A program made the translations under genes and the position numbers. A DNA stretch of 57,792 nucleotides from Limosilactobacillus coleohominis 101-4-CHN. Lineage in GTDB: Bacteria; Bacillota; Bacilli; Lactobacillales; Lactobacillaceae. Positions within the stretch are counted from its first letter, which is position 1; the number at the start of each line of letters is the position of its first letter. Where the stretch lies: contig NZ_GG698803.1 of NCBI RefSeq assembly GCF_000161935.1, positions 25,076-82,867 on the forward strand. The letters run 5' to 3'. Of this stretch, positions 4,713 through 57,609 are shown one piece after another. Below the pieces are notes generated by a model. It saw only the letters and a program-made list of their open reading frames with translations, had not been told where the DNA came from and ran no database searches.

Positions 4713-6563
4713 ATGACTGAAAAAGAGCACACTGGTTTGAATCTAGACGCACTTTTCATTGGTGATAAATCAGAAAATGCTGATATCTTCAAGTCCACTA
4801 TGAATAAGCTTGTCAATGCTCACATGGGTTGGCGTTTAAATTATATGCCACAAGACAAGCCATTGATTACTGAAAGCGATAAGAACAGTGAATCGTTCCA
4901 AAAGACGAACGAACGGATGCAAAGTGTTCTTGATGAATTATCAGTTCGTCTTCGTTCCAATTCAGTTCCTTGGCATTCACCACGGTACTTTGGTCATATG
5001 AACTCAGAAACGTTAATGCCATCCATTCTTGCATATACCTATGCAATGCTTTGGAACGGTAACAACGTTGCTTATGAATCATCACCAGGTACTTCTCAAA
5101 TGGAAGAAGAAGTTGGTCAAGACTTCGCTAAATTAAATGGATTTAAAGAAGGCTGGGGACACATTTCAGCTGATGGTTCATTAGCTAACATGGAAGGTCT
5201 ATGGTACGCACGTAACATGAAGAGTCTTCCATTAGCTATGAAGGAAATTAAGCCAGAATTAGTTTCTGGAAAGAGCGATTGGGAATTAATGAATATGTCT
5301 GCTGAAGAAGTTCTGGATTTGCTTAACAGTACCGATCCAAAGACTGCTTCCGACATTAAGGCTCACTCAGCCCGTGCTGGACACAACATGGATAAGTTAG
5401 GTAAATGGATTGTTCCCCAGACCAAGCACTACAGCTGGATGAAAGCTGCCGATGTTACCGGCGTTGGTCTTGATAACGTTGTTTCTTGTCCTGTTGATGA
5501 ACACTACCGTCTAGATGTTGATGCTCTTGAAAAGATTATTCGTGATCTTGCTAAAGACCATACTCCAATTCTTGGTGTAGTAGCTGTTGTTGGTTCAACT
5601 GAAGAAGGTCAAATTGACCCAGTTGATAAGGTTGTTGCTTTACGTGACAAGCTTCAAAAGGAAGGTATTTACTTCTACCTTCACGTTGATGCCGCTTATG
5701 GATCATATGCTCGTTCACTCTTCTTAGATGAAGATAACAACTTCATTCCATATGAAGATTTGAAAGAAGTTCATCAAAAGTACGGTGTCTTCCAAGAAGA
5801 TAAGGAATACATCTCCAAGGAAGTTTACAACGCATATAAGGCGTTCCCAGAAGCACAATCAATTACCGTTGACCCTCACAAGATGGGATATGTTCCATAT
5901 GCTGCTGGTGGTATTGCAATTCGTCACAAGGATATGCGTGACATTATTGGATACTTCCCAGTTTATGTTTATGACAAGCGTTCAGGTGCTCCAGCAACCT
6001 TAACCCCATACATTCTTGAAGGATCTAAGGCTGGTGCAACAGCGGCAGCTGTTTGGACTGCGCACCGGATTATGCCTTTGAATGTTTCTGGTTATGGTAA
6101 GTTAATTGGCCGTTCAATTGAAGCCGCTAACCGTTACTACGAATTCTTGAAGAACTTACACTTCAACATTAACGGTACAGAAGTTGAAGTAAACCCATTG
6201 ACTCAACCAGACTTTAATATGGTTGACTGGACATTCAACATCAAGGGCAACACTGATTTAGCTAAGATGAATGATTTGAACTTGAAGTTCTATCAAAAGG
6301 CATCATTTGTCGGCGGTCCTGTATATAACAATGACTTTATTACATCACATACCGACTTTGCTACTGATGGATACGGTAATAGTCCAGTTCCATATGTTAA
6401 GAGCCTTGGATTCTCTGAGGATGAATGGAACAAGGTTCAAACAGTTGGTATCTTGCGTGCCTGTGTATTAACTCCATTCCTTTATGATCGTGACAACTTT
6501 GAAAGTTATGCTGACAAGATTAAGAAGGCAATGGAAGAAAAATTAACTGCTATTTTAGGTTAA
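4713..6563 (+). CDS. tdcA: Tyrosine decarboxylase (PLP-dependent), cluster 1
   Basis: 616 residues; TTGGAGG lies eight bases before the ATG at 4713. It is a group II PLP decarboxylase of the lactic-acid-bacterial tyrosine decarboxylase length. The PLP lysine is in D-P-H-K-M-G (about residue 390). H-Y-S-W near 236 contains the ring-stacking histidine, and H-V-D-A-A-Y-G carries the PLP-nitrogen aspartate. The segments G-H-M-N-S-E and A-Y-E-S-S-P-G-T-S match the tyrosine decarboxylases I know from Levilactobacillus brevis and enterococci. It converts L-tyrosine to tyramine and CO2, consuming a proton. Downstream tyrP, nhaC and tyrS confirm the assignment. A weak terminator-like hairpin separates it from tyrP, so downstream genes may be expressed at a lower level. 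Confidence 0.92.
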
Positions 6564-6647: not shown

Positions 6648-8054
6648 ATGAGTGAAAACACGAAAATTAGCTTAGGTACATTCGTTGGTATCGGGATGGC
6701 CATGATTGCGACCGTCCGTAGTGTTCCAACGTTAGCTGCCGCAAGTTGGCAAATGTTCTTCTACATGGCATTTGCCGTCATCTTCTTTGCATTACCAGTT
6801 TCTTTAATGTCTGGTGAATTTTCTGCCATGCTTCAAGATGCTGGTGGCCCACAATTATGGGTTCGTACTGGTTTGAATCCTAAATGGGGATTTACCACAG
6901 CTTGGTTACTTTGGGTACAAATTTTTCCAGGAATGGTTATGGTTGCATCAACCTTAGGACCTCTGCTTGGTAATACAGTTGGTAATGTTGCTTTAGGTCA
7001 AAATCACTGGTTTACCTTAGGATGCATCATTGTAATTTATTGGATTATTACGATTTTGAACCTGAAGTTTGACATGGTAAAGTTTGCCGGGAACTTTGGT
7101 GTTTGGTTTGGTGTTTACATTCCATTTGCAGTAATGATCATTATGGGTGTAGCCGCAGCAATTAAGACTGGAATTGATGCACACAGTGTATTAGGAACCT
7201 TCTCAGCCCACAAGTTATTGCCAGATGTAAGTACCTTCAAATACGTAGCTGCTATTTCATTCATTTTTACTGGGATTGAAACCTTAGGTGTTTACGTTCC
7301 TCGGATGAAGGATGCAACTCATGACTTTGTACGTGGTGTTGTATTTGCTTTAGTTGCTATGGTTGTTTTAAATATTTTGAACGCCTTCTGTGTTGCTAAC
7401 GTTGTTCCAAAGGGTACAACAGAATTAACTAACATTACTCAACCAGTTCTCTTGTTCTGTAAGGTATTAGGCTGGCCAACATGGATTGCTAATGTCTTTA
7501 GCTTATTAGCGGCTGTTGGTGTCTTCTTACAATTATCAGGTTGGGTTACTGGTCCATCACAAACAATGATTCAAGTTGCTCGTGAAGGATTAGTTCCATC
7601 AAAGTGGGGCTTCTTCAAGCACAACAACATTGGTGTTGCTCGAAATGTTATTTTGACGCAATCAACTTGTATCACGATTTTTGCTTTGATGTACGCAATG
7701 CCTGATATTAATAATGTCTTCCTGTTATTAACTAATACGACGACATTACTGTACTGTGTAATTTACTTCTTAATTGCAATTGCATTTATTCGTTTACGTT
7801 ACACAAAGCCAGACCTTGCCCGTCCTTACCGTGTTGGTAAGAATGGCAATGGTGTTGCATGGGTTTGGACTGTATTCTTTATCTTTGGTATTTTCGCTAT
7901 TGCTATTGTAACTTTGGCAACTGCTGGAGCTATGAACGCGATTATCATGGCAATTATTACCATCTTATTAACTGTCATTCCTCTTATTATTAATTCACAC
8001 AAGAATGACCAATGGCTGAAAGATGCCCAAGCTTATGAAGCAAGTCAAAAATAA
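6648..8054 (+). CDS. tyrP: Tyrosine/tyramine antiporter (APC superfamily)
   Basis: 468 residues, highly hydrophobic, with about twelve membrane segments and a start preceded by GAAAGGA. The N terminus has the APC-type G-T-F-V-G-I-G-M-A-M pattern in the first segment. A charged tail follows the last helix. Family knowledge and its place directly after tyrosine decarboxylase make exchange of external tyrosine for internal tyramine the expected role. The exchange generates membrane potential because a proton is consumed inside. A glutamate/GABA-type exchanger is the nearest alternative family, but the context argues against it. Confidence 0.88.
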   Translation: MSENTKISLGTFVGIGMAMIATVRSVPTLAAASWQMFFYMAFAVIFFALPVSLMSGEFSAMLQDAGGPQLWVRTGLNPKWGFTTAWLLWVQIFPGMVMVASTLGPLLGNTVGNVALGQNHWFTLGCIIVIYWIITILNLKFDMVKFAGNFGVWFGVYIPFAVMIIMGVAAAIKTGIDAHSVLGTFSAHKLLPDVSTFKYVAAISFIFTGIETLGVYVPRMKDATHDFVRGVVFALVAMVVLNILNAFCVANVVPKGTTELTNITQPVLLFCKVLGWPTWIANVFSLLAAVGVFLQLSGWVTGPSQTMIQVAREGLVPSKWGFFKHNNIGVARNVILTQSTCITIFALMYAMPDINNVFLLLTNTTTLLYCVIYFLIAIAFIRLRYTKPDLARPYRVGKNGNGVAWVWTVFFIFGIFAIAIVTLATAGAMNAIIMAIITILLTVIPLIINSHKNDQWLKDAQAYEASQK

Positions 8055-8089
8055 TTTTGTGTATTAATTAATTACTAGGAGTGACCCTT

Positions 8090-9478
8090 ATGGCTAAAAA
8101 GGAACGAGAAAAACCACATGTTGGCATTTTAGAAAGTTTACTAGTTGTTATTTGTATTCTCATTATTTTAGGATATTTGATTATTTTTAAATCTCAGTCA
8201 CCGCAGGTTCCACTATTAGTTTCAGTGATAGTTCTAATGTTATATGGATTTATTAGAGGATTTGGCTGGGACAATGTTATGTCTGGAATTGAAGAAGGAA
8301 TCAAACCTGGAGTAATTCCGTTAGTGATCTTTTTAATGATTGGTGTGCTGATTTCGACCTGGATTTACTCCAGCACAATTCCAACAATTATGTATTTTGG
8401 TTTCAAGATTATATCAGTGAAGTTCTTTCTTCCGACTGTTTTTATAGTTTGTTCATTGGTTGGGTTAACTTGTGGAAGTTCGTTCACAACTGTTTCAACA
8501 ATGGGAATCGCCTTCATGGGGATTGGTGTTGCCCTCAAGATTAATCCGGGATTAATTGCTGGAGCAATCGTTTCTGGAGCATTTTTTGGGGCTAATACTT
8601 CTCCGTTATCAGGAACAACTAATTTAGCAGCTGGTGTAGGTGAAATTGATTTATATGATCATATTAAATCGTTGTTATGGACGGATGTCCCTGCGTGGAT
8701 CATTTCGCTGATTTTATTCTCCATTATGGGAATGGAACATAGCAACGCAAGCCTTAAGACGATTGATGTAATGACTAGTGAGCTGCAACATGGCTTTTGG
8801 ATTTCATGGTGGACTGTTTTACCAGTGTTGTTATTACTTGTAATGGCTTGGCTTAAGGTACCAGCAGTTCCTTCCTTAGCATTTGGGTCATTCTTTGCTG
8901 TAATAATCGGTTGGCTACACAATCCAATTAAGCTAAATACTTTAGCAAACTACATTATGAATGGATATATTGCACATACCGGTAGTAAGTCAATGAACGA
9001 ATTATTATCCAAGGGTGGAATTAGTAGCATGCTTAGTTCCCTCGCATTGATAATATTTGCTTTAGCATTAGGTGGCTTATTAATCAAATTTAATGTAATT
9101 GGTGCACTTATTGATGGAATGGAAAAGTTTGTTAATAGTGTGGGCAGATTAGTGTTGGCAACTGCGATCACCTGCTTTGGTGTTAACTTTCTTGTTGGTG
9201 AGCAGTATCTTTCCGTTATCTTACCAGGAGAAAGTTTTAAGAAGTCATTTGAAAAAATGCATCTTCCAGCTACTTATTTAACTCGTGTGTTAAATGATGC
9301 TGGTGCAGCTGTTAATTCAATCATTCCATGGAGTGTTAGCGGAGTCTTTATTTCAGGTACTTTACAAATTAGTCCATTTAAATACATTCCGTACTCATTC
9401 TTCCCAATTACAGTACCGATTTTAACAATCATTGTTGGATTTATTTTAGGACATAGAACAAGATCAGTAAGTAGATAG
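8090..9478 (+). CDS. nhaC: Na+/H+ antiporter, NhaC family
   Basis: 462 residues from the ATG at 8090; AGGAG lies before it, and an in-frame GTG at 8081 overlaps that site. The protein has about eleven to twelve membrane segments. The conserved core reads T-C-G-S-S-F-T-T-V-S-T-M-G-I-A near residue 128, followed by A-N-T-S-P-L-S-G-T-T-N near 168, both hallmarks of NhaC-type carriers. It starts 35 bases after tyrP and ends 19 bases before tyrS1, so it is part of the cluster 1 operon. In tyramine clusters of other lactic bacteria an nhaC gene sits in the same neighbourhood, presumably for ion and pH balance. Confidence 0.88.
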   Translation: MAKKEREKPHVGILESLLVVICILIILGYLIIFKSQSPQVPLLVSVIVLMLYGFIRGFGWDNVMSGIEEGIKPGVIPLVIFLMIGVLISTWIYSSTIPTIMYFGFKIISVKFFLPTVFIVCSLVGLTCGSSFTTVSTMGIAFMGIGVALKINPGLIAGAIVSGAFFGANTSPLSGTTNLAAGVGEIDLYDHIKSLLWTDVPAWIISLILFSIMGMEHSNASLKTIDVMTSELQHGFWISWWTVLPVLLLLVMAWLKVPAVPSLAFGSFFAVIIGWLHNPIKLNTLANYIMNGYIAHTGSKSMNELLSKGGISSMLSSLALIIFALALGGLLIKFNVIGALIDGMEKFVNSVGRLVLATAITCFGVNFLVGEQYLSVILPGESFKKSFEKMHLPATYLTRVLNDAGAAVNSIIPWSVSGVFISGTLQISPFKYIPYSFFPITVPILTIIVGFILGHRTRSVSR

Positions 9479-9497: not shown

Positions 9498-10748
9498 ATG
9501 GATATTTTAGAAGATTTGAAGTGGCGAGGCGCCATTAATCAATGTACAGACTTAGATGGATTACGTGAATTATTAAAGACAAAGAAGATTTCACTTTATT
9601 GCGGAACCGATCCAACAGGTGACTCTCTCCATATTGGACATTTAATTCCATTTATTATGTTGAAGCGATTTCAACTTGCAGGCCATCATCCATACATCCT
9701 CATTGGTGGTGGGACAGGTTTTATTGGTGATCCTTCTGGACGTAAGACAGAACGTCAATTACAAACTTCTGATCAGGTTCAACACAATAAAGAAGCTCTT
9801 ACAAAGCAGATGATAAAACTGTTTGGAACGGAGAACTTTAAGATTGTTGATAACTATGATTGGTTGAGCAAGATTAGCTTATTAGACTTTCTACGTGATT
9901 ATGGTAAGTCGTTCAATGTTAACACGATGTTATCAAAAGAAGCTGTTGCTAGTCGTTTGAAGAATGGAATTTCATTTACTGAATTTAGTTACCAAATTTT
10001 ACAGTCGGTCGACTTTTTATACCTGAATAACACTGAAGATATCCAATTACAAATTGGTGGTGCTGATCAGTGGGGTAACTTGACCAACGGGGTCGACTTA
10101 ATCCATAGCAAAAAGCCAAATGAAAAAGCATTCGGCTTAACAATTCCTCTTATGTTGAAAGCTGATGGTACTAAGTTTGGTAAGACCGCAGGTGGAGCAG
10201 TATGGTTAGATGCTAAAAAGACATCACCATTTGAGTTCTACCAGTTCTGGCTCAATCAAGATGATCGTGATGTTGTAAAGTACTTGAAGTACTTTACTTT
10301 CCTGAGCCACGAAGAGATTGATGACTTGGCTGAAAAAGTTAAGACAGAACCGCAAAAACGGGAAGCGCAGCGTCGGTTAGCTGAAGAAGTTACGAAGTTT
10401 GTTCATGGTGAAGAAGCCATGAAACAAGCTGAAAAGATGTCCAATATTTTATTTAAGGGTGACATCCAAGACTTATCAGTTGAAGAACTTAAGCAAGCCT
10501 TTGAAAAGGTTCCATCAGTGGAAATTAGTTCTAAACCAGTTAATGTAATTGATTGGTTAGTACAAATTGAAATCGAGCCGTCGAAGCGTCAGGCTCGTGA
10601 AGATGTTAATAATGGTGCAATAACGATCAATGGTCAAAAGATTAGTGACGAAAGTTTCGTTGTAGATCCAAGCACTAATTTTGATGGTCAATACGTTGTT
10701 GCAAGAAAAGGGAAGCGAAATTACTTCCTAGCAAAAGTTACTAAGTAA
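9498..10748 (+). CDS. tyrS: Tyrosyl-tRNA synthetase, cluster 1
   Basis: 416 residues, a normal bacterial TyrRS length. The class I signature is H-I-G-H at about residues 47-50, and the KMSKS-type loop reads K-F-G-K-T near 230. G-G-A-D-Q-W-G-N-L-T near 190 is the tyrosine and tRNA-site segment. The C-terminal S4-like domain contains Q-A-R-E-D-V-N-N-G-A. It charges tRNA-Tyr with tyrosine. TyrS genes are known companions of tyrosine decarboxylase loci and are thought to sense or safeguard tyrosine supply. Here it is the last gene of the operon, and its stop codon forms the first bases of a conserved RNA element. Confidence 0.95.
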   Translation: MDILEDLKWRGAINQCTDLDGLRELLKTKKISLYCGTDPTGDSLHIGHLIPFIMLKRFQLAGHHPYILIGGGTGFIGDPSGRKTERQLQTSDQVQHNKEALTKQMIKLFGTENFKIVDNYDWLSKISLLDFLRDYGKSFNVNTMLSKEAVASRLKNGISFTEFSYQILQSVDFLYLNNTEDIQLQIGGADQWGNLTNGVDLIHSKKPNEKAFGLTIPLMLKADGTKFGKTAGGAVWLDAKKTSPFEFYQFWLNQDDRDVVKYLKYFTFLSHEEIDDLAEKVKTEPQKREAQRRLAEEVTKFVHGEEAMKQAEKMSNILFKGDIQDLSVEELKQAFEKVPSVEISSKPVNVIDWLVQIEIEPSKRQAREDVNNGAITINGQKISDESFVVDPSTNFDGQYVVARKGKRNYFLAKVTK

Positions 10749-10945
10749 ATATTCTTTTCATAGCGGGCGGGATTAGATATGTAGATATGTTGATTATTCG
10801 CAACTGTTTCAATTGTTGGAACTATCCATCTCCTACGGGAAACAGGGATCTAACTACCTTTTCGGAAATTTTGTAAGAGCGCAATGAACAATTTTTCCAT
10901 ATTTAATCGTTAAAAAAGCGAATATATAGGGTGAATAGAATATTT
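10747..10945 (+). promoter_or_regulatory. Conserved structured RNA element, copy 1 (candidate riboswitch)
   Basis: A ~199-base stretch opens at the tyrS1 stop codon and is repeated after tyrS2. A closing helix is formed by AAATATTC (10747) and GAATATTT (10938-10945), perfect in both copies. Inside are GTTGAT with ATCTAAC (one bulge), CTGTTTC with GAAACAG, and TGGA with TCCA, enclosing the conserved single strand TCTCCTACG. TTTAA-TCG-TTAAA forms a small hairpin near the 3' end. A terminator follows at once and then a permease gene, the layout of a transcription-terminating riboswitch. It lacks the T-box sequence, and I could not match it to the lysine, cobalamin, M-box, TPP or FMN consensus. 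Confidence 0.6.
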
Positions 10946-10985
10946 AGAGCTCAGTATGAAGATACTTCGTACTGGGCTTTTTTTA
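10946..10985 (+). terminator. Terminator closing RNA element copy 1
   Basis: AGCTCAGTA pairs with TACTGGGCT (one wobble) and is followed by at least seven T. It lies only 18 bases before the permease ATG, so it would control that gene. Confidence 0.8.
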
Positions 10986-11002: not shown

Positions 11003-12292
11003 ATGAGTAAAAAATTATCATTCTGGTCAATTTATTTCTTAGGAATGAATTCAATTATTGGTTCGGGAACTTTCCTACTGCCGCAAACTATATATAAGGA
11101 TATGGGAGTTTTAGGGATTTTAGTATTAGTAACATCAGCTTTGTCTATGGGATTGATAGTGACCTGCTATGCAAGATTAGCAGGAAAGTTTGATGAATCT
11201 GGTGGCTCATGGGTGTATTCATACCACGCATTTGGCAAATTTGCTGGCTTTCAGGTTGGAATGTTTACCTACGTGCTAGGGTGTTGTGGAACTGCTTGCG
11301 AAATAGTGGCGTTTATGACGACCTTAAAAAGCTATAACCCAATTTTTGGTAATTCAGGAGTCAAATTAACGATTATCTCTGCCATTATTTTGCTGTTTTT
11401 AGTTGTTAACTATTTTGGTAATTATTTTGTTAAGATCTTTGATAATATTTCATCAGCCACTAAAGTGTTTGTAGTTATTTTCTTTATAATTGTTGGATTA
11501 TTTTTTATTCAAAAAGACAACTTTGAACCGATTATTCCTAATTATGTTGGAAATAGCGTAAGAGGTTTTTCTAATCACTTTAGTGAGGCATTTTCAGTAA
11601 CATTTTATATGTTTGGTGGCTTTTCTTTATTACCGGTGGCCGCACGAAAAATGGTAAATTCAAAGAAAAATCTTCCCCGAGTATTAACCGTTATAATGTT
11701 AAGTTTGATTTGCTTGTATTCCTTAGTAATGGTTGTTTGCATTGGAATATTAGGAAGAAAATTGGTATCTAGTCATGTTCCTGTCGCCGATGCATTATTA
11801 CTAACTGTTGGGAAATGGGGATATTTATTAATAATCGTATGCATGTTAGTTGGGATGATTGGGGCTGCTTTTGCTCAATCGTATGATGCAACTATGCTGC
11901 CTGCTTCATTATCTCTAGAACACCATATGCTTCCAAAATGGATTGGTAAGAAAAACCGTTTCGATGCACCAATAGTGTCAATGATAATTACCTATGTAAT
12001 AATTTTTATGTTAACGACACAATCCTACCTATTCTTAGTTTCATTAGTGGTATTAGCCTCCTTTATCCAATATTTACCTTCTATTCTTTCAGTAATTAAA
12101 TTAGAGTACCAAAAACAATTTGGAAACCGTACCAAAGCTATAATGGGATATGTAATTCCAGGACTTGCATTAATAGTATCGATGTATTTGATCATTAGTT
12201 TTTCACGTCCCGCACTAATTATCGGGTTTATAGTAATCATTGTTAATACAATCCTATATTGTTTTTTGAGAAGACGTTTGTCCATGAAGTAG
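11003..12292 (+). CDS. Amino-acid permease (APC superfamily)
   Basis: 430-residue class membrane protein (429 residues plus stop), with about twelve hydrophobic segments. The start is the ATG at 11003, preceded by TGGAGAA; a GTG in frame at 10931 is rejected because the terminator lies inside that extension. The first helix has G-M-N-S-I-I-G-S-G-T-F-L, the unwound substrate-binding pattern of APC carriers. It is not closely similar to tyrP next door. Placed between two aromatic decarboxylase clusters, it may bring in an aromatic amino acid or exchange it for an amine. Substrate assignment from sequence alone is not possible. It is likely controlled by the RNA element directly upstream. Confidence 0.8.
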   Translation: MSKKLSFWSIYFLGMNSIIGSGTFLLPQTIYKDMGVLGILVLVTSALSMGLIVTCYARLAGKFDESGGSWVYSYHAFGKFAGFQVGMFTYVLGCCGTACEIVAFMTTLKSYNPIFGNSGVKLTIISAIILLFLVVNYFGNYFVKIFDNISSATKVFVVIFFIIVGLFFIQKDNFEPIIPNYVGNSVRGFSNHFSEAFSVTFYMFGGFSLLPVAARKMVNSKKNLPRVLTVIMLSLICLYSLVMVVCIGILGRKLVSSHVPVADALLLTVGKWGYLLIIVCMLVGMIGAAFAQSYDATMLPASLSLEHHMLPKWIGKKNRFDAPIVSMIITYVIIFMLTTQSYLFLVSLVVLASFIQYLPSILSVIKLEYQKQFGNRTKAIMGYVIPGLALIVSMYLIISFSRPALIIGFIVIIVNTILYCFLRRRLSMK

Positions 12293-12394: not shown

Positions 12395-13411
12395 CTATTT
12401 GAAATAATTTATACCCATTGCAGATTTTACTTCTTCCAATGTTTGATTTGCAATGATGTTAGCGTTTTCGCATCCTTTATGTAACATATCATAAACAGAA
12501 GCAATATCTTTGGCATACATACTTCTACGTTTTCTAATTGGAGCTAATTCTTCATTTAAAATGTGGAATAAATATCTTTTGATTGTCACATCACCTAATC
12601 CACCATGTTGGTATTGTTCTTTTAGTTCGCGAACTTTATCTTTATTTTTATCAAAAATATCAAGGTAGGTAAATACGATATTACCTTCGACCTTACCAGG
12701 ATCTCCGACATGAATATGATTAGGATCGGTATAGATAGACATAACTTTTTTCTTCAGAGTATCTTCATCATCAGATAAATAAATAGTATTTCCTAGTGAT
12801 TTACTCATCTTAGCATTACCATCCAAACCAGGGATACGTCCTTGGCCTTTAGGAGGGAAGACCCCTTCTGGCTCCACTAGTACATTTCCATATGTTGAAT
12901 TAAATGAATGGATGATTTCCCGAGCTTGTTCCAACATCGGTTCTTGATCATCACCTACAGGAATTAAGCTTGCCTTAAAGGCTGCAATATCAGCTGTTTG
13001 GCTAACCGGATATGTCAAGAATCCAGCAGGAATAGATCTATCAAAATGTTTTTGCTGAATTTCAGATTTAACAGTCGGATTACGCTCCAATCGAGAAACA
13101 GTTACTAAGTTTAGAAAATACATATTTAACTCAGAAAGAGCCGGAATTTGCGATTGAACATAAAGTGTGGTTTTTTCTGGATTTAAACCTACGCCAAGAT
13201 AGTCTAAAGCTACTTGAGCTAGACTGTCCTGAATTTTTTTCGGATTTTTTGCATTATCGGTTAAAGCTTGTTGATCAGCAATCATCACAAACATTTGATA
13301 TTTATCACTATTTTGCATTTTTACTCTATTTTTTAATGATCCAACATAGTGGCCAATGTGAAGTTTGCCAGTAGGACGATCGCCAGTTAAAACTATTTTT
13401 TTATTATTCAT
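12395..13411 (-). CDS. trpS: Tryptophanyl-tRNA synthetase
   Basis: 338 residues from the ATG at 13411, which has TTGGAGG upstream on the minus strand. Frames extending to 13507 run through the T-box terminator and are not translated. The class I signatures are K-L-H-I-G-H near residue 14 and K-M-S-K-S near 198. It charges tRNA-Trp. The gene lies alone on the minus strand between two tyrosine-decarboxylase-type clusters. It is controlled by a T-box leader with a TGG specifier, so it is expressed when uncharged tRNA-Trp builds up. Whether this is the only trpS of the genome cannot be seen here. Confidence 0.95.
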   Translation of the reverse strand: MNNKKIVLTGDRPTGKLHIGHYVGSLKNRVKMQNSDKYQMFVMIADQQALTDNAKNPKKIQDSLAQVALDYLGVGLNPEKTTLYVQSQIPALSELNMYFLNLVTVSRLERNPTVKSEIQQKHFDRSIPAGFLTYPVSQTADIAAFKASLIPVGDDQEPMLEQAREIIHSFNSTYGNVLVEPEGVFPPKGQGRIPGLDGNAKMSKSLGNTIYLSDDEDTLKKKVMSIYTDPNHIHVGDPGKVEGNIVFTYLDIFDKNKDKVRELKEQYQHGGLGDVTIKRYLFHILNEELAPIRKRRSMYAKDIASVYDMLHKGCENANIIANQTLEEVKSAMGINYFK

Positions 13412-13426
13412 GATTAATGCCTCCAA

Positions 13427-13617
13427 ATAAAAAATCCTACTCCCTAAAAAAGAAATAGGACGAGTTACCGTGGTGCCACCTAAATTACAGAAAAATCTGT
13501 CACTCAATACATGTATTTAGCTATTTTAGCAGATAGATCCACTTCGTTCATTTTCTCAATTTCAGCCAATAAGAGATTCTCTGTATAATGAACTACTTTG
13601 CTCTGTCTGAATTTAGC
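13427..13617 (-). promoter_or_regulatory. T-box riboswitch of trpS (Trp specifier)
   Basis: On the minus strand the leader contains the T-box sequence GGTGGCACCACGGTAACTCG (13480-13461), which pairs with the tRNA acceptor end. It is followed by a terminator stem (TCCTAT...ATAGGA type with a T run) at about 13460-13427. Upstream in the Stem I region, GAACGAAG is followed by TGG at 13541-13539, the tryptophan specifier, which agrees with the gene it precedes. Uncharged tRNA-Trp should favour the antiterminator and allow trpS transcription. Confidence 0.93.
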
Positions 13618-13891: not shown

Positions 13892-15766
13892 ATGAGTACC
13901 AAAAAGAACTACAAGAATATGGATTTATCTGCATATTTTATTGGACCACACGGTGAAAATGGTGATCTATTCAAAGAACTTGCTGCTAAATTGACCGATG
14001 ATCATATTGGTTGGCGCAAAAATTACAATGCAGGTGATGAAGATTCAATTAGTGAAGATGAAAAAGCGACTCCTGAATTTAATAATGCCGTTGTAAATAT
14101 GAAGGATGTATTAAACGAATTATCACGTAAGTTACGTGACGGTTCTATTCCTTGGGACACAGCAGGCCGTTACCTTTCACAAATGGATAATGAAACCTTA
14201 ATGCCTTCTATCTTAGCATACAATTTTGCGATGCTTTGGAATGGTAATGGTGTTGCTTGGGCTGGTAGTCCTGCATCAACTTTGATGGAACAAGAAGTAG
14301 GTCACCAATTAGCTGAAATGCATGGATATGATAAGAACGGTTGGGGATACGTTGCGACTGATGGTTCAATTGCCAATGTTAGTGCTTTATGGATGGCTCG
14401 TAATGTTGCATCAATTCCTTTGGCCATTAAGGAAGTCTGCCCTGAATTAGTTGAGGGTAAGACTGAATGGGAACTTCTTAACATGTCGGTTAAAGAAGAA
14501 TTGGATCTATTGGATCAAGCTGGTGACAAGAAGAACGAAGTTAAAGCTCATTCTGCACGTAGTGGTAAAAACTTACAGAAGCTTGGTAAATGGTTAGTAC
14601 CATCAACAATGCACTATTCTTGGCGGAAAGCTTGTGATATCACAGGGGTTGGTGAAGATAACTTAGTTGTTCTACCTGTTGATGACCATTACCGGATTGA
14701 TATAGATAAGTTGGATAAGATTATTGCAGAAAATGTTGAAAAGCATATTCCAATTTTAGGGGTTGTTGCTGTAGTTGGTACAACCGAAGAAGGCCAAATT
14801 GACCATGTGGATAAGATTGTTGAAATGCGCAATAAGTGGATTAAGAAGGGCGTAAACTTCTATATTCATGTTGATGCTGCATACGGTGGTTATGGTCGAA
14901 CAGTTTACTTAGATGAAGATAACAACTTTATTCCATATGACAAACTCGAAACTAAATTTAAGGAATATGGAATCTTTACTGAAAATAACCAGTTCTTGAA
15001 GAAGAATGTTTATGATGCATATAAAGCAATGGGTGAAGCTGACTCTGTAACGGATGACCCTCACAAGATGGGGTATGTTCCATATGATGCTGGTGGTTTA
15101 ACGATTAAGGATACTCGTTTAAAGGATACTTTGACATACTATGCACCATATGCATTCCAAGAAGGGATCGCTGTTCCAGCATCAATTGGTCAGTTTACAC
15201 TGGAAGGCTCTAAGTCAGTTGGATCAGCCGCAGCTGTTTGGGCTGCTAATAAGATTCTTCCATTAAACATTAGTGGTTATGGTCGATTAGTTGCTCGGAC
15301 TTTATACGGTGCCCGTCGAATTCATGATCTTTTTGATGGTCAGAAGTTCGAAGTTGATGGTCACACAATTGTATCGCACGTTGTTTATGATCCAGACTTT
15401 AACATGGTTGACTGGGTATACAAAGAAGAAGGTAATGACAGTCTTAAAGCCATGAATGATTTAACTCAAGCAGTTATGGAATACACCACTACTGCTAAGG
15501 GCGGCAAGCTTTATAACATGGATATTCAATTATCTGATACGAGCTTTGAACCTGATAATTATGGAGATGCTCCAGTTAAATTTATTGAAAGTCTTGGTAT
15601 GACTGCAGATGAATATCATAAATTAGGTAAATTAGAGGTTCTTCGTTCCTCATGCATGTCTCCATGGATGTATGACGAAGACTCGGTTGAATATTGGTCA
15701 AAAGAAATTACGGCAGCAATTCAAGATAAGCTTGAAAAGGTCGCAAGGAATGAAAACATTCTCTAA
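13892..15766 (+). CDS. Second tyrosine-decarboxylase-family enzyme (aromatic amino acid decarboxylase)
   Basis: 624 residues from the ATG at 13892, with GGAGG twelve bases before; the frame is open upstream to 13778 but crosses the promoter. It is a clear paralog of Tdc1. The PLP lysine in D-P-H-K-M-G is at residue 392, H-Y-S-W holds the ring-stacking histidine, and H-V-D-A-A-Y-G-G is intact. Positions near the active site differ: S-Q-M-D-N-E replaces G-H-M-N-S-E, A-W-A-G-S-P-A-S-T replaces A-Y-E-S-S-P-G-T-S, and G-D-A-P replaces G-N-S-P near the C terminus. It is likely catalytically active but with changed substrate preference (phenylalanine, tryptophan, DOPA or another amine precursor). 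That part is inference. Confidence 0.85.
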   Translation: MSTKKNYKNMDLSAYFIGPHGENGDLFKELAAKLTDDHIGWRKNYNAGDEDSISEDEKATPEFNNAVVNMKDVLNELSRKLRDGSIPWDTAGRYLSQMDNETLMPSILAYNFAMLWNGNGVAWAGSPASTLMEQEVGHQLAEMHGYDKNGWGYVATDGSIANVSALWMARNVASIPLAIKEVCPELVEGKTEWELLNMSVKEELDLLDQAGDKKNEVKAHSARSGKNLQKLGKWLVPSTMHYSWRKACDITGVGEDNLVVLPVDDHYRIDIDKLDKIIAENVEKHIPILGVVAVVGTTEEGQIDHVDKIVEMRNKWIKKGVNFYIHVDAAYGGYGRTVYLDEDNNFIPYDKLETKFKEYGIFTENNQFLKKNVYDAYKAMGEADSVTDDPHKMGYVPYDAGGLTIKDTRLKDTLTYYAPYAFQEGIAVPASIGQFTLEGSKSVGSAAAVWAANKILPLNISGYGRLVARTLYGARRIHDLFDGQKFEVDGHTIVSHVVYDPDFNMVDWVYKEEGNDSLKAMNDLTQAVMEYTTTAKGGKLYNMDIQLSDTSFEPDNYGDAPVKFIESLGMTADEYHKLGKLEVLRSSCMSPWMYDEDSVEYWSKEITAAIQDKLEKVARNENIL

Positions 15767-15797
15767 TTCAATATGTGAGCTAGAAACTCATTTTGAG

Positions 15798-15832
15798 AAA
15801 GCTCAGGCAGTCATTACTTGGGCTTTCTTTTT
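15798..15832 (+). terminator. Hairpin between tdc2 and DUF554 gene
   Basis: AAAGCTCA pairs with TTGGGCTTT and is followed by CTTTTT. It has the same sequence theme and place as the hairpin after tdc1, and probably lets part of transcription through. Confidence 0.65.
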
Positions 15833-15870
15833 AGCAATTGTTCAATTAATAAAAGGTTGGCGAAATAATA

Positions 15871-16563
15871 ATGTTAGTAAGTTTAACGGGTACAATTACT
15901 GATGCAGTAGGAGTTGTTATTGCATCAATTCTTGGTAGCTTCATTGGAAAGCATATGAGTGACAGATACAAAGGAATTTTAATTGCAATGCTAGGTTTTA
16001 TCGCTTTAGCTGTTGGAATTGAGAGTTTCTGTAGTTATATGCCCAAGTCTAAATATGCGGTGTTATTTATTATTGCAATGATTTTAGGGACCGTTTTAGG
16101 AACTTGGTGGAATCTTGACGGTAAAGTAAATAAGTTAGCTGGTAAAGGATCTGAAGGGTTAGCGCGTTCTATTGTTACAGAATGTACTCTTTCATGTTTA
16201 GGTGCTTTACCGATTGTCGGTGCCATTATGGCTGCTACTAGTCACAATTTTACATTTTTATTTGTTAATGCATCATTAGACTTTGTAATGGTAATGATCT
16301 TAGCGGCTGCTGATGGTATTGGAATGATTGTGTGTGCTCCAATTATTTTTGTTTATCAATTTTTAATCATCCTTGTTGCAACATTTGCTCGTGACTGGTT
16401 AAGTACACCATTCATCACGGAAATTGCTATGTTAGGGGGATTAATGGTTGCTTCATCTGGATTGAGTTTAATGGGAATTAAGGATCTTAAGACAACTAAT
16501 CAAATGCCAGCACTCCTTGTTCCAATTGTCTTTTTTGCATGTAAAGCAATTTTCCATTTTTAA
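15871..16563 (+). CDS. DUF554 family membrane protein
   Basis: 230 residues with about six to seven membrane segments. It has the G-T-x-x-D-A-x-G-V-V-I-A-S-I-L-G-S-F-I-G start, a G-x-x-L-G-T-W-W segment near residue 71 and the T-P-F-I-T-E-I-A-M-L-G-G-L-M segment near the C terminus, typical of DUF554 (YdfK-type) proteins. No function is established for the family as far as I know. It takes the place that tyrP and nhaC hold in cluster 1, starting about 100 bases after tdc2 and ending 25 bases before tyrS2. A transport or ion-balance role with the second decarboxylase is therefore a reasonable guess. Start ATG 15871 has AAAGGTTGG upstream. Confidence 0.8.
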   Translation: MLVSLTGTITDAVGVVIASILGSFIGKHMSDRYKGILIAMLGFIALAVGIESFCSYMPKSKYAVLFIIAMILGTVLGTWWNLDGKVNKLAGKGSEGLARSIVTECTLSCLGALPIVGAIMAATSHNFTFLFVNASLDFVMVMILAAADGIGMIVCAPIIFVYQFLIILVATFARDWLSTPFITEIAMLGGLMVASSGLSLMGIKDLKTTNQMPALLVPIVFFACKAIFHF

Positions 16564-16588
16564 TGATTAATTAATAACTGGTGATTTT

Positions 16589-17839
16589 ATGGATATTTTA
16601 GAAGACTTAAAATGGCGTGGTGCCATTAATCAATGTACTGACTTGAATGGGCTACGTGAGTTATTAAATTCCAAAAAGATTTCTTTATATTGTGGGACTG
16701 ACCCAACAGGTGATTCACTCCACGTTGGACACCTGATTCCATTTATCATGTTAAAAAGATTCCAATTAGCTGGTCATCATCCATATATTCTTATTGGCGG
16801 TGGGACAGGATTTATTGGAGACCCATCTGGACGTAAAACAGAACGACAATTGCAAACTGCTACGCAAGTTCAACATAATAAAGAAGCTTTAACCAGGCAA
16901 ATGATTAAGCTATTTGGTACGGAAAATTTCAAAATTGTTGATAATTATGAGTGGCTTAGCAAAATCAGTTTATTGGATTTTCTTCGTGATTATGGGAAGT
17001 CATTTAATGTTAATACGATGTTATCCAAAGAAGCAGTTGCTAGTCGCTTGAAGAATGGAATTTCATTTACTGAATTTAGTTATCAAATTTTACAATCGGT
17101 TGACTTTTTATACCTTAATAATGTGGACCATATTCAATTACAAATTGGTGGTGCAGATCAATGGGGTAATTTGACCAACGGGGTTTACCTTATTCATAGT
17201 AAAAAGCCAAATGAAAAAGTATTTGGCTTAACAATTCCTCTCATGTTAAAAGCAGATGGTACTAAATTCGGTAAATCTGCTGGTGGAGCAGTATGGTTAG
17301 ATGCTAATAAAACATCACCGTTTGAGTTTTACCAATTCTGGTTTAATCAGGATGATCTAGATGTTGTGAAGTATCTGAAGTACTTTACTTTCCTTACTCA
17401 TCAGGAAATCGATGATTTAGCTGAAAAAGTGAAGTTAGAACCTCAAAAACGAGAAGCACAACGACGCCTAGCTGAAGAAGTTACGAAGTTTGTTCATGGT
17501 GAAAAAACTATGAAACAAGCAGAGAGAATTTCGAATCTTCTATTTAATGGAAACATTCAAGATCTTTCAGTTAGTGAGCTTAAACAGGCTTTTAAAAAGG
17601 TTCCTTCAGTTGAAATTAATCTAGATTCTGTTAATGTGATTGACTGGCTTGTTCAAACAGAAATTGAATCATCTAAACGACAGGCTCGGGAAGATGTTAA
17701 TAATGGTGCAATTATGATTAATGGTCAAAAAGTTAATGATGAAAATTATATTGTTGATCCAAAAAATCATTTTGAGGGTAAATATGTTGTAGCCAGAAAA
17801 GGTAAGCGTAATTACTTTCTTGCAAAAGTTGTGAGATAA
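16589..17839 (+). CDS. tyrS: Tyrosyl-tRNA synthetase, cluster 2
   Basis: 416 residues, the same length as TyrS1 and close to it throughout (my estimate is near 90 percent identical by eye). The HIGH motif is H-V-G-H here, the KMSKS-type loop reads K-F-G-K-S, and G-G-A-D-Q-W-G-N-L-T is unchanged. Differences include G-V-Y-L-I-H-S for G-V-D-L-I-H-S and W-F-N-Q-D-D-L-D for W-L-N-Q-D-D-R-D. The enzyme should be active on tRNA-Tyr. With its downstream RNA element it looks like part of a block duplication of the tdc-tyrS locus in which the middle genes were lost or replaced. Confidence 0.93.
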   Translation: MDILEDLKWRGAINQCTDLNGLRELLNSKKISLYCGTDPTGDSLHVGHLIPFIMLKRFQLAGHHPYILIGGGTGFIGDPSGRKTERQLQTATQVQHNKEALTRQMIKLFGTENFKIVDNYEWLSKISLLDFLRDYGKSFNVNTMLSKEAVASRLKNGISFTEFSYQILQSVDFLYLNNVDHIQLQIGGADQWGNLTNGVYLIHSKKPNEKVFGLTIPLMLKADGTKFGKSAGGAVWLDANKTSPFEFYQFWFNQDDLDVVKYLKYFTFLTHQEIDDLAEKVKLEPQKREAQRRLAEEVTKFVHGEKTMKQAERISNLLFNGNIQDLSVSELKQAFKKVPSVEINLDSVNVIDWLVQTEIESSKRQAREDVNNGAIMINGQKVNDENYIVDPKNHFEGKYVVARKGKRNYFLAKVVR

Positions 17840-18032
17840 ATATTCCTTTCATAGTGGGCGGGAACGATTGTTGATTATATTGATGATTTGCTTACTGTTT
17901 TATCTGTTGGAATAAATCCATCTCCTACGAGAAACAGGGATCTAACTACCTTTGGAAAATTTAAAAGAGCGCAATAAATAAATTTTCTGCAAATTAATCG
18001 TTAAAGCAAGTCATAGGGTGATCTGAATATTT
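17838..18032 (+). promoter_or_regulatory. Conserved structured RNA element, copy 2
   Basis: This 195-base stretch opens at the tyrS2 stop codon and matches copy 1 in long blocks: CATAGTGGGCGGGA, GTTGAT, CTGTTTT, TTGGAAT, CCATCTCCTACG, GAAACAGGGATCTAACTACC, AGAGCGCAAT, TTAATCGTTAAA and AGGGTGA. The closing helix AAATATTC (17838-17845) with GAATATTT (18025-18032) is again perfect. In the CTGTTT(C/T)-GAAACAG helix the changed base keeps a G-U pair. A terminator follows, but the next gene starts only ~165 bases later and belongs to a PTS. This copy may thus be an orphan whose regulated gene was lost, or act as a 3' end structure. Confidence 0.58.
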
Positions 18033-18033
18033 T

Positions 18034-18068
18034 GACTCAGTGTGAAATAATTTTACACTGAGTTTTTT
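18034..18068 (+). terminator. Terminator closing RNA element copy 2
   Basis: ACTCAGTGT pairs exactly with ACACTGAGT and is followed by a T run. The 18069-18229 gap beyond it is AT-rich; it presumably holds the promoter of the PTS operon, but I see no clear -35/-10 pair. Confidence 0.85.
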
Positions 18069-18232
18069 AATTACAAACATTATATAAATATACATAAGAT
18101 AATTGGTTAAATAACTAATAGTTTTATATGGTATCATTGTGGACGTGTTCACAACAATGGCCATTACATTGGACACTTATTTATCATCATTATTTTAATA
18201 ACCTGTTAGACTAAAAATAAGGAGGGAGGATG

Positions 18233-19720
18233 ATGACTAAGAGCAGTGATAAAATTGTCAGTACTTTAGCTAAGTATGATCGGTTTGTCACGTCGAAAGA
18301 GTTAGCACAAATTATTGGAGTTTCACCAAAAACTATTTACCGATCTGTTACCGAGATTAATCAGAAATATCACTTCCCATTGATTAAATCTGAACGTGGG
18401 AAGGGATATATTCTTGATTATGACCAATATCTTAAACTAAATGGACATTTCCATGAAGAACAAAATCTGGTTGTTAAGTCACCCATCGAACGGCGGAATG
18501 AAGTGATTACAACATTACTATTCAATGCACCTTTAGCAGTTAATATTAATGATGTTTATGAGAAGTATTATGTTAGTGCAGAATTAATTCGTCAGGATTT
18601 GTTAGCAATTAATAATTTGCTACATAAATACAACCTCAACATTCAACGTCATAATAATTATGTGGCTGTTAAAGGTGAAGAACAGCAAATTCGACGGGCA
18701 ATTAATAGTGCATTGGTTCAGAGCAAGGCGATGAATACTGAAAGTATTAATGATTTTGCTAGTGAGTTCGAAGATTTGAGCAATTATGATAATTCATTTC
18801 TAACTACTCAAATTGATTGGATTCAGAAGTCATTAGGAACTACAATTCCTTATCCATACAATGTTAATATTTTTTCGCACTTGTATGTTTTAATTAAACG
18901 ATTTCGAAATGGCAAGGTTGTTAAGGACACTCAACAAAGCGATTTTGCGGATAAGTGTCTTCAATTGCGTAAAGAAAATGCTAAATTTTGGAAAATCAGT
19001 AATGATGTTATTCAGAATACAGCTGATTATATTCATCGAGATATTCCTGAAATTGAAAGCTATTATTTATTAGAATATTTAATTTCGATGCGGTATAATC
19101 ACGACTTTGCAATTGATGATGAAGTGTCTTCGGATGCCAGTAAGCTTGCAGACTATTATATTAATGGCTTTCAGCTTAGTATTCATGATCCAAAAGTTAA
19201 AGCGTTAAAGGGCGATTTAATTAGTCATATTAGACCGATGTTCAATCGTCTAAAGAATCGCATTGTAATTGCTAATAAATTATTGGATGACATTAAATCA
19301 GAGTATCAAAAGTTATTCGATTGTTTGAAACGATTAAGTAGACAGGCGAATGATGATGGATTACTTTCATGGAAAATTAGTGATGATGAGATTGGCTTTT
19401 TGACGTTATATTTCGCCAAATATTTTGAGGAAACCAGTTTAAATAAGAGAGTTTTAGTGATGTGTGCAAGTGGTGTTGGTACTTCTAAATTATTGTACGC
19501 AAAAATTCACAGAAACTTTCCTGAACTAGATTTAGTTGGTATTGTCTCAAAAAGTGATTATGAAAGCCATTATTCGCAATACGTTAATGTTGATTTAATT
19601 GTTTCAACTATTCCAGTTAGTCCAAGGAACAATGAGCAAGTAATTTTATCAAGCGCAATGTTTAATATGCAAGATCGAAATAGATTGAGTAGGTATCTTG
19701 ATGAACATAATGTTGATTAA
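18233..19720 (+). CDS. BglG/MtlR-type PTS transcriptional regulator without EIIA domain
   Basis: 495 residues; AAGGAGG is seven bases before the ATG at 18233 (an ATG at 18230 is closer than usual). The order is an N-terminal winged helix-turn-helix (D-R-F-V-T-S-K-E-L-A, then P-K-T-I-Y-R), a second HTH-like region around residues 85-150, and two PTS regulation domains roughly at 180-390. A GatB-like EIIB domain follows with V-M-C-A-S-G-V-G-T-S-K near 408. The usual C-terminal EIIA domain of this class is missing and is encoded by the next, slightly overlapping gene. It should be phosphorylated by PTS proteins and control the galactitol-type PTS genes that follow. Confidence 0.85.
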   Translation: MTKSSDKIVSTLAKYDRFVTSKELAQIIGVSPKTIYRSVTEINQKYHFPLIKSERGKGYILDYDQYLKLNGHFHEEQNLVVKSPIERRNEVITTLLFNAPLAVNINDVYEKYYVSAELIRQDLLAINNLLHKYNLNIQRHNNYVAVKGEEQQIRRAINSALVQSKAMNTESINDFASEFEDLSNYDNSFLTTQIDWIQKSLGTTIPYPYNVNIFSHLYVLIKRFRNGKVVKDTQQSDFADKCLQLRKENAKFWKISNDVIQNTADYIHRDIPEIESYYLLEYLISMRYNHDFAIDDEVSSDASKLADYYINGFQLSIHDPKVKALKGDLISHIRPMFNRLKNRIVIANKLLDDIKSEYQKLFDCLKRLSRQANDDGLLSWKISDDEIGFLTLYFAKYFEETSLNKRVLVMCASGVGTSKLLYAKIHRNFPELDLVGIVSKSDYESHYSQYVNVDLIVSTIPVSPRNNEQVILSSAMFNMQDRNRLSRYLDEHNVD

Positions 19721-43987: not shown

Positions 43988-43993
43988 AAATTT

Positions 43994-44175
43994 GCGATGA
44001 GTCGAGAGGTCTGGTAGCAACCCAAATGGCTACCATTAGACATTTCGAGTGGGGCACATTAACCTGCCGGATTGCAGGGTGCCTGGTAATGATGAAAGTG
44101 GACGTTCATCATTACCTGAGATCATATCAATACACAAAGCCGCGACTACTTCATTGAGGTAGTCGCGGCTTTTTT
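43994..44175 (+). ncRNA. Structured small RNA, ~180 nt, unassigned
   Basis: No convincing reading frame fits, but the stretch is dense in base pairing. TGGTAGC pairs with GCTACCA near 44019-44038, inside a GTCT/AGAC helix. GGCAC/GTGCC enclose CCTGC/GCAGG near 44055-44088. GGTAATGATGAA pairs exactly with TTCATCATTACC near 44090-44116. A strong terminator ends it. It has its own promoter. The size suits a 6S RNA, and Lacto-usp RNA occurs near usp genes in lactobacilli, but the separate hairpins do not resemble the single rod of 6S RNA. I leave the class open. Confidence 0.65.
44136..44175. terminator. Bidirectional terminator of ncRNA and ATPase gene
   Basis: AAAGCCGCGACTAC pairs exactly with GTAGTCGCGGCTTT, then five T. 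The stop codon of the minus-strand ATPase gene overlaps its right edge. Confidence 0.92.
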
Positions 44176-57450: not shown

Positions 57451-57479
57451 GGTAATTATAAAATAAAAAACAACCTTGT

Positions 57480-57546
57480 GATCTCCCTTCGCTGGTCCTA
57501 ACCAGAGCAGGTTCGATGGGTATTTCTCAGCCGTGTGGCACCCCAG
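57480..57546 (-). promoter_or_regulatory. TPP riboswitch (thi box)
   Basis: On the minus strand it reads GGGGTGCC, then GGCTGAGA, ACCC, GAACCTG, GGT-loop-ACC and GCGAAGGGA, the full thi-box order. The P1 ends (TGGGGTG / GGGAGA) and the CUGAGA core are intact. It precedes the ECF ATPase gene with a terminator between, so thiamine pyrophosphate should shut the operon. Confidence 0.95.
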
Positions 57547-57609
57547 ACAAAGATAATTAAATTTAGTTTAATCATACCGAAAGCAGCAGTGAAGTGCAAG
57601 CGGGTAGAA

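Follow-up and report, generated by a model that had tools for sequence, protein, structure and literature searches.

A candidate new family of structured RNA found 3′ of tyrS in tyramine gene clusters of Limosilactobacillus

Results

Genes and features of the locus

Lactobacilli of the gut and of food form tyramine from tyrosine, a conversion that is relevant to food safety and host signalling. The window (the whole stretch of DNA analysed, 57,792 nucleotides of Limosilactobacillus coleohominis 101-4-CHN) contains two gene clusters, and tyrS is the final gene in both. A folded RNA of ~200 nt is present twice, as copies c1 and c2, each lying 3′ of a tyramine-cluster tyrS. The genes and RNAs are arranged as follows.

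4713-6563: TyrDC1 (NCBIfam/Pfam naming)
6648-8054: TyrP (NCBIfam/Pfam naming)
8081-9478: NhaC (NCBIfam/Pfam naming)
9498-10748, plus strand: tyrS1 (NCBIfam tyrS), end gene of TyrDC1-tyrP-nhaC-tyrS1
10748-10947, plus strand: RNA copy 1 (c1), beginning inside the tyrS1 stop codon; closing stem ends at 10944
10946-10984, plus strand: intrinsic terminator 3′ of c1 (stem 10946-10980)
11003-12292, plus strand: amino-acid permease (Pfam AA_permease_2; under every listed NCBIfam cut-off), found 3′ of c1 only
13892-15766: TyrDC2, a more distant tyrosine-decarboxylase-like gene, below the family cut-off (834 vs 905 bits)
15871-16563: DUF554 gene (Pfam)
16589-17839, plus strand: tyrS2 (NCBIfam tyrS), end gene of TyrDC2-DUF554-tyrS2
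17839-18034, plus strand: RNA copy 2 (c2; 17839-18031 by the narrower bounds), beginning inside the tyrS2 stop codon
18034-18068, plus strand: intrinsic terminator 3′ of c2
18230-19720: PRD/Mga-type regulator, 3′ of c2

Both copies thus have their 5′ end within a tyrS stop codon (that of tyrS1, TAA, is at 10746-10748) and their 3′ end at an intrinsic terminator. The second cluster (13892-17839), with its divergent decarboxylase, may act on a substrate other than tyrosine. A third tyrS, 74% identical to tyrS1, is found elsewhere in the source genome. Among the best 80 of 548 tyrS loci, 27 have a tyrosine-decarboxylase gene in reach; the order is tyrS-tyrDC in 22 of these (one on a cut contig), tyrDC-tyrP-nhaC-tyrS in three (L. 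caecicola, L. oris and Companilactobacillus halodurans) and different again in two.

Four copies in two species

Four copies of the RNA are known in total, the other two being in Limosilactobacillus caecicola, a species of the same genus as the source.

L042:6249-6455 (6251-6453 by narrower bounds): cae1, directly 3′ of a tyramine-type tyrS; 187 bits with covariance model R1, which includes cae1
L247:6922-7112, minus strand: cae2, divergent, ~6 kb downstream of cae1, with no tyrS adjoining

The proposal in the original prediction that a covariance model be carried beyond the window bore fruit in cae2, which is not part of R1 and was newly found by it at 46.5 bits (E 6e-6). Copy c1 scores 224 bits with R1, which contains it, and 103 bits with model R2, which does not. 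The start of cae1 is at the fifth base past the tyrS stop, and a tyramine-cluster tyrS is directly upstream in three of the four copies. No copy was found at the other tyrS genes of the two species, that is, the third one of the source genome and the second one of L. caecicola. The terminator scan called a terminator-like hairpin after all four copies; for cae2 the call is a 7-bp hairpin, the 3′ arm of which is common to a longer stem in the predicted fold.

A direct repeat of 169 bp, 95.9% identical, runs from the 3′ end of cae1 and is found again just upstream of cae2 (12842-13010 and 7134-7302, respectively, on the L247 plus strand). The two copies were probably once close together and later split by a sugar-transport-like module. 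Named by eye, the module between the repeats resembles sugar transport plus aldolase, and the interior of the repeat, TTGGTGAA...TTCACCA, resembles a small inverted-repeat element.

Among the sampled genomes, the carriers are these two species only. The genome sets searched overlap, and those of more than 40 genomes were searched with strict filters, so that weak copies may escape. A DNA search of 95 relatives gave L. caecicola (G029) as the sole real match outside the source genome. With R1, 3 of 50 genomes of the genus matched (G000, G029 and G011), and the G011 match of 28.9 bits was rejected by eye on its sequence and model score. Laxer filters on 38 genus genomes gave three matches, among them a 56-nt stretch in G004 (L268, 22 bits) judged by eye to be chance. 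At the level of the family, R2 matched 6 of 396 genomes, four of these matches (L251-L254) being judged chance by eye from sequence and model score, and the pattern search allowing up to three mismatches matched 1 of 396. The order search matched 2 of 395 genomes, one of the matches (L267) again being judged chance by eye on sequence and score, and the class search 1 of 398. No match was found in plasmids (queries c1, cae1 and cae2) or phages (queries c1 and cae2), and viral contigs had no match to the core pattern, the 14-base pattern being too unspecific there.

When the best 80 of the 548 tyrS loci were searched by model, L042 was the sole match. L. oris and C. halodurans, which have the same gene order, gave no detectable copy (filters off and default filters, respectively), and it follows that a tyramine cluster does not need the RNA. 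In L. oris, ~300 strongly folding bases (L043:6246-6610), unrecognised by R1 or R2, lie between tyrS and the terminator; this 3′ stretch folds with z = −3.73, terminator included.

Fold and compensatory changes

In the fold obtained from comparison of the copies, P1 closes the RNA and P2, inside P1, encloses two hairpins, P3 and P4. The parts of c1, and the corresponding loops of c2, are located as follows.

10748-10760, plus strand: P1 5′ strand, c1, partner 10932-10944
10765-10772, plus strand: GGGYGGG strand between P1 and P2, c1; G columns invariant in alignments A2 and A4
10795-10801, plus strand: P2 5′ strand, c1, partner 10918-10924
10804-10845, plus strand: P3 hairpin, c1 (CUGUUUC 10804-10810 / GAAACAG 10839-10845), placed on sequence
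10824-10837, plus strand: L3 loop AUCCAUCUCCUACG, 14 bases, the same in c1, c2 and cae1
10864-10898, plus strand: P4 hairpin, c1 (10864-10874 / 10888-10898, two U-U mismatches)
10877-10883, plus strand: L4 loop GAGCGCA, c1, the same in all four copies
10918-10924, plus strand: P2 3′ strand, c1
10929-10933, plus strand: GGGUG between P2 and P1, c1, possible pseudoknot partner of L3 CAUCU
10932-10944, plus strand: P1 3′ strand, c1
17916-17929, plus strand: L3 loop, c2
17967-17973, plus strand: L4 loop GAGCGCA, c2

The original prediction of a structured RNA reaching from the tyrS1 stop to the terminator is borne out both by the sequence and by the comparison of four copies. The 8-bp perfect closing stem that it described is present at 10748-10755 / 10937-10944, as is its loop strand TCTCCTACG at 10829-10837, which is part of the 14-base string at 10824-10837 that is identical in c2. 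Its closed, multi-helix fold also stands; the detail of the helices is amended by the addition of P2 around P3 and P4. P2 was assigned from the comparison of copies rather than from the minimum-energy fold of c1. It is absent from the minimum-energy folds of c1 and cae2, and P1 is absent from that of c2. In c2, P2 has a length of 11 bp. P1 and P2 are separated by unpaired strands, 5′ by an invariant GGGYGGG and 3′ by GGGU. The L3 loop of cae2 is altered and one base shorter than the 14-base loop.

With the helices of the four copies registered by hand, which favours the pairing result, 114 of the 125 cells making up P1, P2 and P4 are paired. The helices are contiguous except for mismatches (one in c1 P1, two in c1 P4 and three in c2 P1). 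In this register 14 of the 34 columns of the three helices show a compensatory change, the feature on which the original prediction had staked its proposed stems. Exchange of the 3′ strands between copies gives 13,824 permutations, of which the true one alone pairs that well and 16 equal the true number of compensatory columns.

Similar statistics were calculated from two alignments. In A6, a model-made alignment of four distinct rows that was fitted to the structure and has an imperfect P4 register, 80.5% of cells pair, a level attained by none of 500 shuffles (74.1%); the tool cautions, however, that relatedness by itself, with no structure involved, can lift sequences above shuffles. Double changes occur in 11 cells compared with 4.7 for shuffles, none of the 500 equalling this, and one shuffle in 500 has as good a covariation score. 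The count of further pair types does not stand out from the shuffles, 67 of 500 having as many. P2 is paired in 36 of 36 cells. Sliding the 3′ partners reduces the pairing to 37-51%. The three-row MAFFT alignment A4 gives a weaker signal, its pairing being equalled by 42 shuffles in 500 and its double changes by 27 in 500.

P3 is the least certain helix and differs by species, being CUGUUUC/GAAACAG in c1, CUGUUUU/GAAACAG in c2 and CUGG/CCAG in cae1 and cae2. A pseudoknot between L3 and GGGUG is suggestive only, resting as it does on one compensatory change in the sequences: the pairing would be CAUCU/GGGUG in three copies and UAUCU/GGGUA in cae2.

Folding energy and conservation

The c1 fold has a z of −3.83 because the terminator is included. 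Without it, z is −1.06 and 26 of 200 shuffles fold equally well; the values for c2, cae1 and cae2 are −0.33, −0.76 and −2.68. With the terminator left out, folding energy alone is therefore no evidence for structure in three of the four copies.

The identity between RNA copies was set against that of fourfold-degenerate sites in the tyrS genes next to them. Copies c1 and c2 are identical at 84.7% of aligned bases compared with 55.7% (73/131) for tyrS1 and tyrS2, and c1 and cae1 at 71.1% compared with 45.3% (62/137); gapped alignment of non-coding DNA inflates such figures, and gene conversion could lift that for c1 and c2. BLAST identities, which count gap columns and the terminator, are 77.7% for c1/c2 and 62.9% for c1/cae1. 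What takes the case beyond chance is the combination of two L. caecicola copies, the compensatory changes and the identity above fourfold sites. We regard it as close to certain that this is a genuine conserved structured RNA.

Comparison with known RNA families

None of the four copies matches any Rfam 15 family above its gathering score. In permissive searches c2 and cae2 had no matches; the six of c1 (E of at most 10) and the two of cae1 (E of at most 1) all fall far short of the gathering scores. As a positive control, the permissive search recovered the trpS T-box 2.5 kb away. This T-box (window 13453-13613, minus strand) has a score of 60 bits, below its gathering score of 93, so that a default Rfam scan misses it. 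Two other Rfam RNAs were recognised in the window, a Lacto-3/Ref68 RNA of 67.9 bits at 43993-44107 on the plus strand and a TPP riboswitch at 57467-57555 on the minus strand.

The regions upstream of TyrDC1, tyrS1, TyrDC2 and tyrS2 yielded no T-box. The RNA resembles the T-box leader (RF00230), including that of Enterococcus durans tyrS, in being a structured RNA beside an intrinsic terminator and linked to tyrS and tyramine, but it sits 3′ of tyrS and a T-box sits 5′. Identity with RF00230 was rejected given the lack of an Rfam match, the position 3′ of tyrS in three of four copies and the finding of no antiterminator pairing beyond chance. The original prediction had likewise set the element apart from T-boxes and from the classes with which it was compared, and with the trpS T-box found as a control this holds good.

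A literature search gave no tyrosine, tyramine or phenylalanine riboswitch among the matches listed, and neither "Lactobacill-" nor "tyrS" occurs in the main texts of two surveys of new bacterial RNAs. On the sequence comparisons, then, this RNA of ~200 nt, with four copies in two species and no Rfam 15 match, is a candidate new family.

Discussion

An element at the 3′ end of the tyramine operon

The steady neighbour of the RNA is the upstream tyramine-type tyrS, present in three of four copies, and not the downstream gene. We tentatively favour the reading that this constancy suggests, in which the RNA serves as a binding element, for a ligand, a protein or another RNA, at the 3′ end of the tyramine-operon message. 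It would form a folded domain within the 3′ UTR of the tyrDC-tyrP-nhaC-tyrS transcript, reaching from the stop codon to the intrinsic terminator. The invariant or near-invariant unpaired strands (GGGYGGG, L3, GAGCGCA and GGGU) would fold into a compact core, within which L3 perhaps docks on GGGU. The core would bind a small molecule, a protein, for example the TyrRS of the preceding gene, or another RNA, and binding would set the lifetime or 3′-end processing of the message, or of a released RNA; the element would not be mainly a switch for the next gene. Counted against this reading is cae2, which has no adjoining tyrS. With a range of two species, the association with tyrS could also be due to shared descent of one cluster.

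A more specific form of the 3′-end element, which we consider doubtful, is an RNA class that senses a ligand or TyrRS from the end of the operon and couples TyrRS synthesis, or the level of tyrosine or tyramine, to the fate of the tyramine-operon mRNA. Since P1 of c1 and c2 already begins within the tyrS stop codon, ribosomes ending tyrS would compete with this closing stem. Such a sensing RNA would take the role that a tyrS T-box is reported to have in the E. durans cluster, in which tyrS comes first (PMC3315439). As described in that report, the T-box leader controls tyrS by tyrosine, and tyrS has a 1.6-kb transcript without tdcA (PMC3315439).

Alternative functions

Next in our ranking, below the 3′-end binding element and above a switch for the permease, comes a trans-acting small RNA, a stable, terminator-ended molecule in which the C-rich L3 or the GAGCGCA loop would pair with target mRNAs. 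The closed fold with a terminator-like hairpin immediately 3′ in all four copies is as expected of such a molecule, and CUCC within L3 is the complement of GGAG ribosome-binding sites. It would also suit cae2, which has no tyrS and has upstream of it a second, slightly altered cae1 terminator hairpin (seen in the sequence and missed by the terminator scan). The RNA is like 3′-UTR-derived small RNAs in lying 3′ of a stop codon in three of four copies and ending in an intrinsic terminator. A search for targets of L3 and L4 in the 49 start regions of the window gave nothing beyond chance, as judged against 100 shuffled loops (fractions of 0.43, 0.28, 0.13 and 0.13). Promoter-like sites are also no more frequent than expected, at 1 vs 2.3 for c1 (on the minus strand), 4 vs 3.8 for c2, 0 vs 2.0 for cae1 and 2 vs 2.4 for cae2 (both on the opposite strand), and L3 is possibly paired inside the RNA itself. 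We therefore think a released RNA rather unlikely.

The original prediction likened the position of the RNA to that of a riboswitch terminating transcription ahead of the amino-acid permease, and this part was not supported. For c1 the terminator does separate tyrS1 from the permease, the ATG of which (11003) is 18 nt past the last T of the run, and from this position the permease requires read-through or an internal promoter. The RNA is also similar to terminating riboswitches in being compact and multi-helical, with invariant unpaired strands and a terminator directly 3′; it is unlike them in having no conserved downstream gene and no sign of a mutually exclusive pairing shared by the copies. 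In c1 (−12.0 kcal/mol) and c2 (−11.9 kcal/mol), pairing of the P1 5′ strand with the 5′ arm of the terminator is possible but within chance, since fractions of 0.117 and 0.087, respectively, of 300 letter shuffles do as well, and in cae1 and cae2 the best pairings with the terminator are elsewhere and weaker than those of average shuffles (fractions 0.613 and 0.653). Moreover, the downstream neighbour is different in every copy, the permease being there in one of four. After c2 it is the PRD/Mga-type regulator, with its ATG 161 nt past the T-run; after cae2 it is a long ORF, the first possible start of which is 218 nt away; and after cae1 there is no plus-strand ORF of at least 70 aa for ~3 kb. 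The permease reading fails because of these differences among the copies, and a ligand-responsive terminator controlling read-through into the permease is in our view improbable.

Still less probable is that the RNA is a hitch-hiker, duplicated with the tyramine cluster and having a structure that only shields the 3′ end of the mRNA from exonucleases. Two copies do lie 3′ of duplicated tyrS genes and the 169-bp repeat at cae1 and cae2 points to local duplication, but the invariant unpaired strands and the conservation above synonymous sites exceed the need of a plain protective hairpin. Finally, open frames of 26-29 codons span the core in c1, c2 and cae1, with L3 in a small frame (PSPT...), but a short protein-coding sequence is hardly credible given that indels of 1 and 2 nt on both sides disrupt the frame between c1 and c2, that its start codons differ, that the cae2 peptide in that frame is different and that the 14-base core is conserved at all positions in three copies.

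Tyramine clusters with and without a T-box

The window clusters end with tyrS and have a different folded RNA 3′ of it, and a T-box search upstream of their tyrDC and tyrS genes gave none. If the RNA regulates, a catabolic operon would here have its regulator at the 3′ end; if it is released, it would represent a new small-RNA family.

A different conserved stretch, containing CGTTAAT, is seen past tyrS in eight Enterococcus tyramine clusters (L078, L094, L099, L104, L105, L111, L113 and L119). It resembles the RNA described here in being conserved between the tyrS stop and the terminator, and some of the stretches contain CCCATCC..GGAAAC, which is similar to L3 by eye. Homology is unsupported, however: with filters off, R1 misses all eight loci and R2 misses seven, and 31 of 32 pairwise similarities are above a shuffle fraction of 0.05. 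The stretch occupies the ~95 bases past the tyrS stop, before a covarying terminator, and the five of the eight that were folded, terminator included, have z values of −3.4 to −5.4. The stretch may represent a 3′ element of its own.
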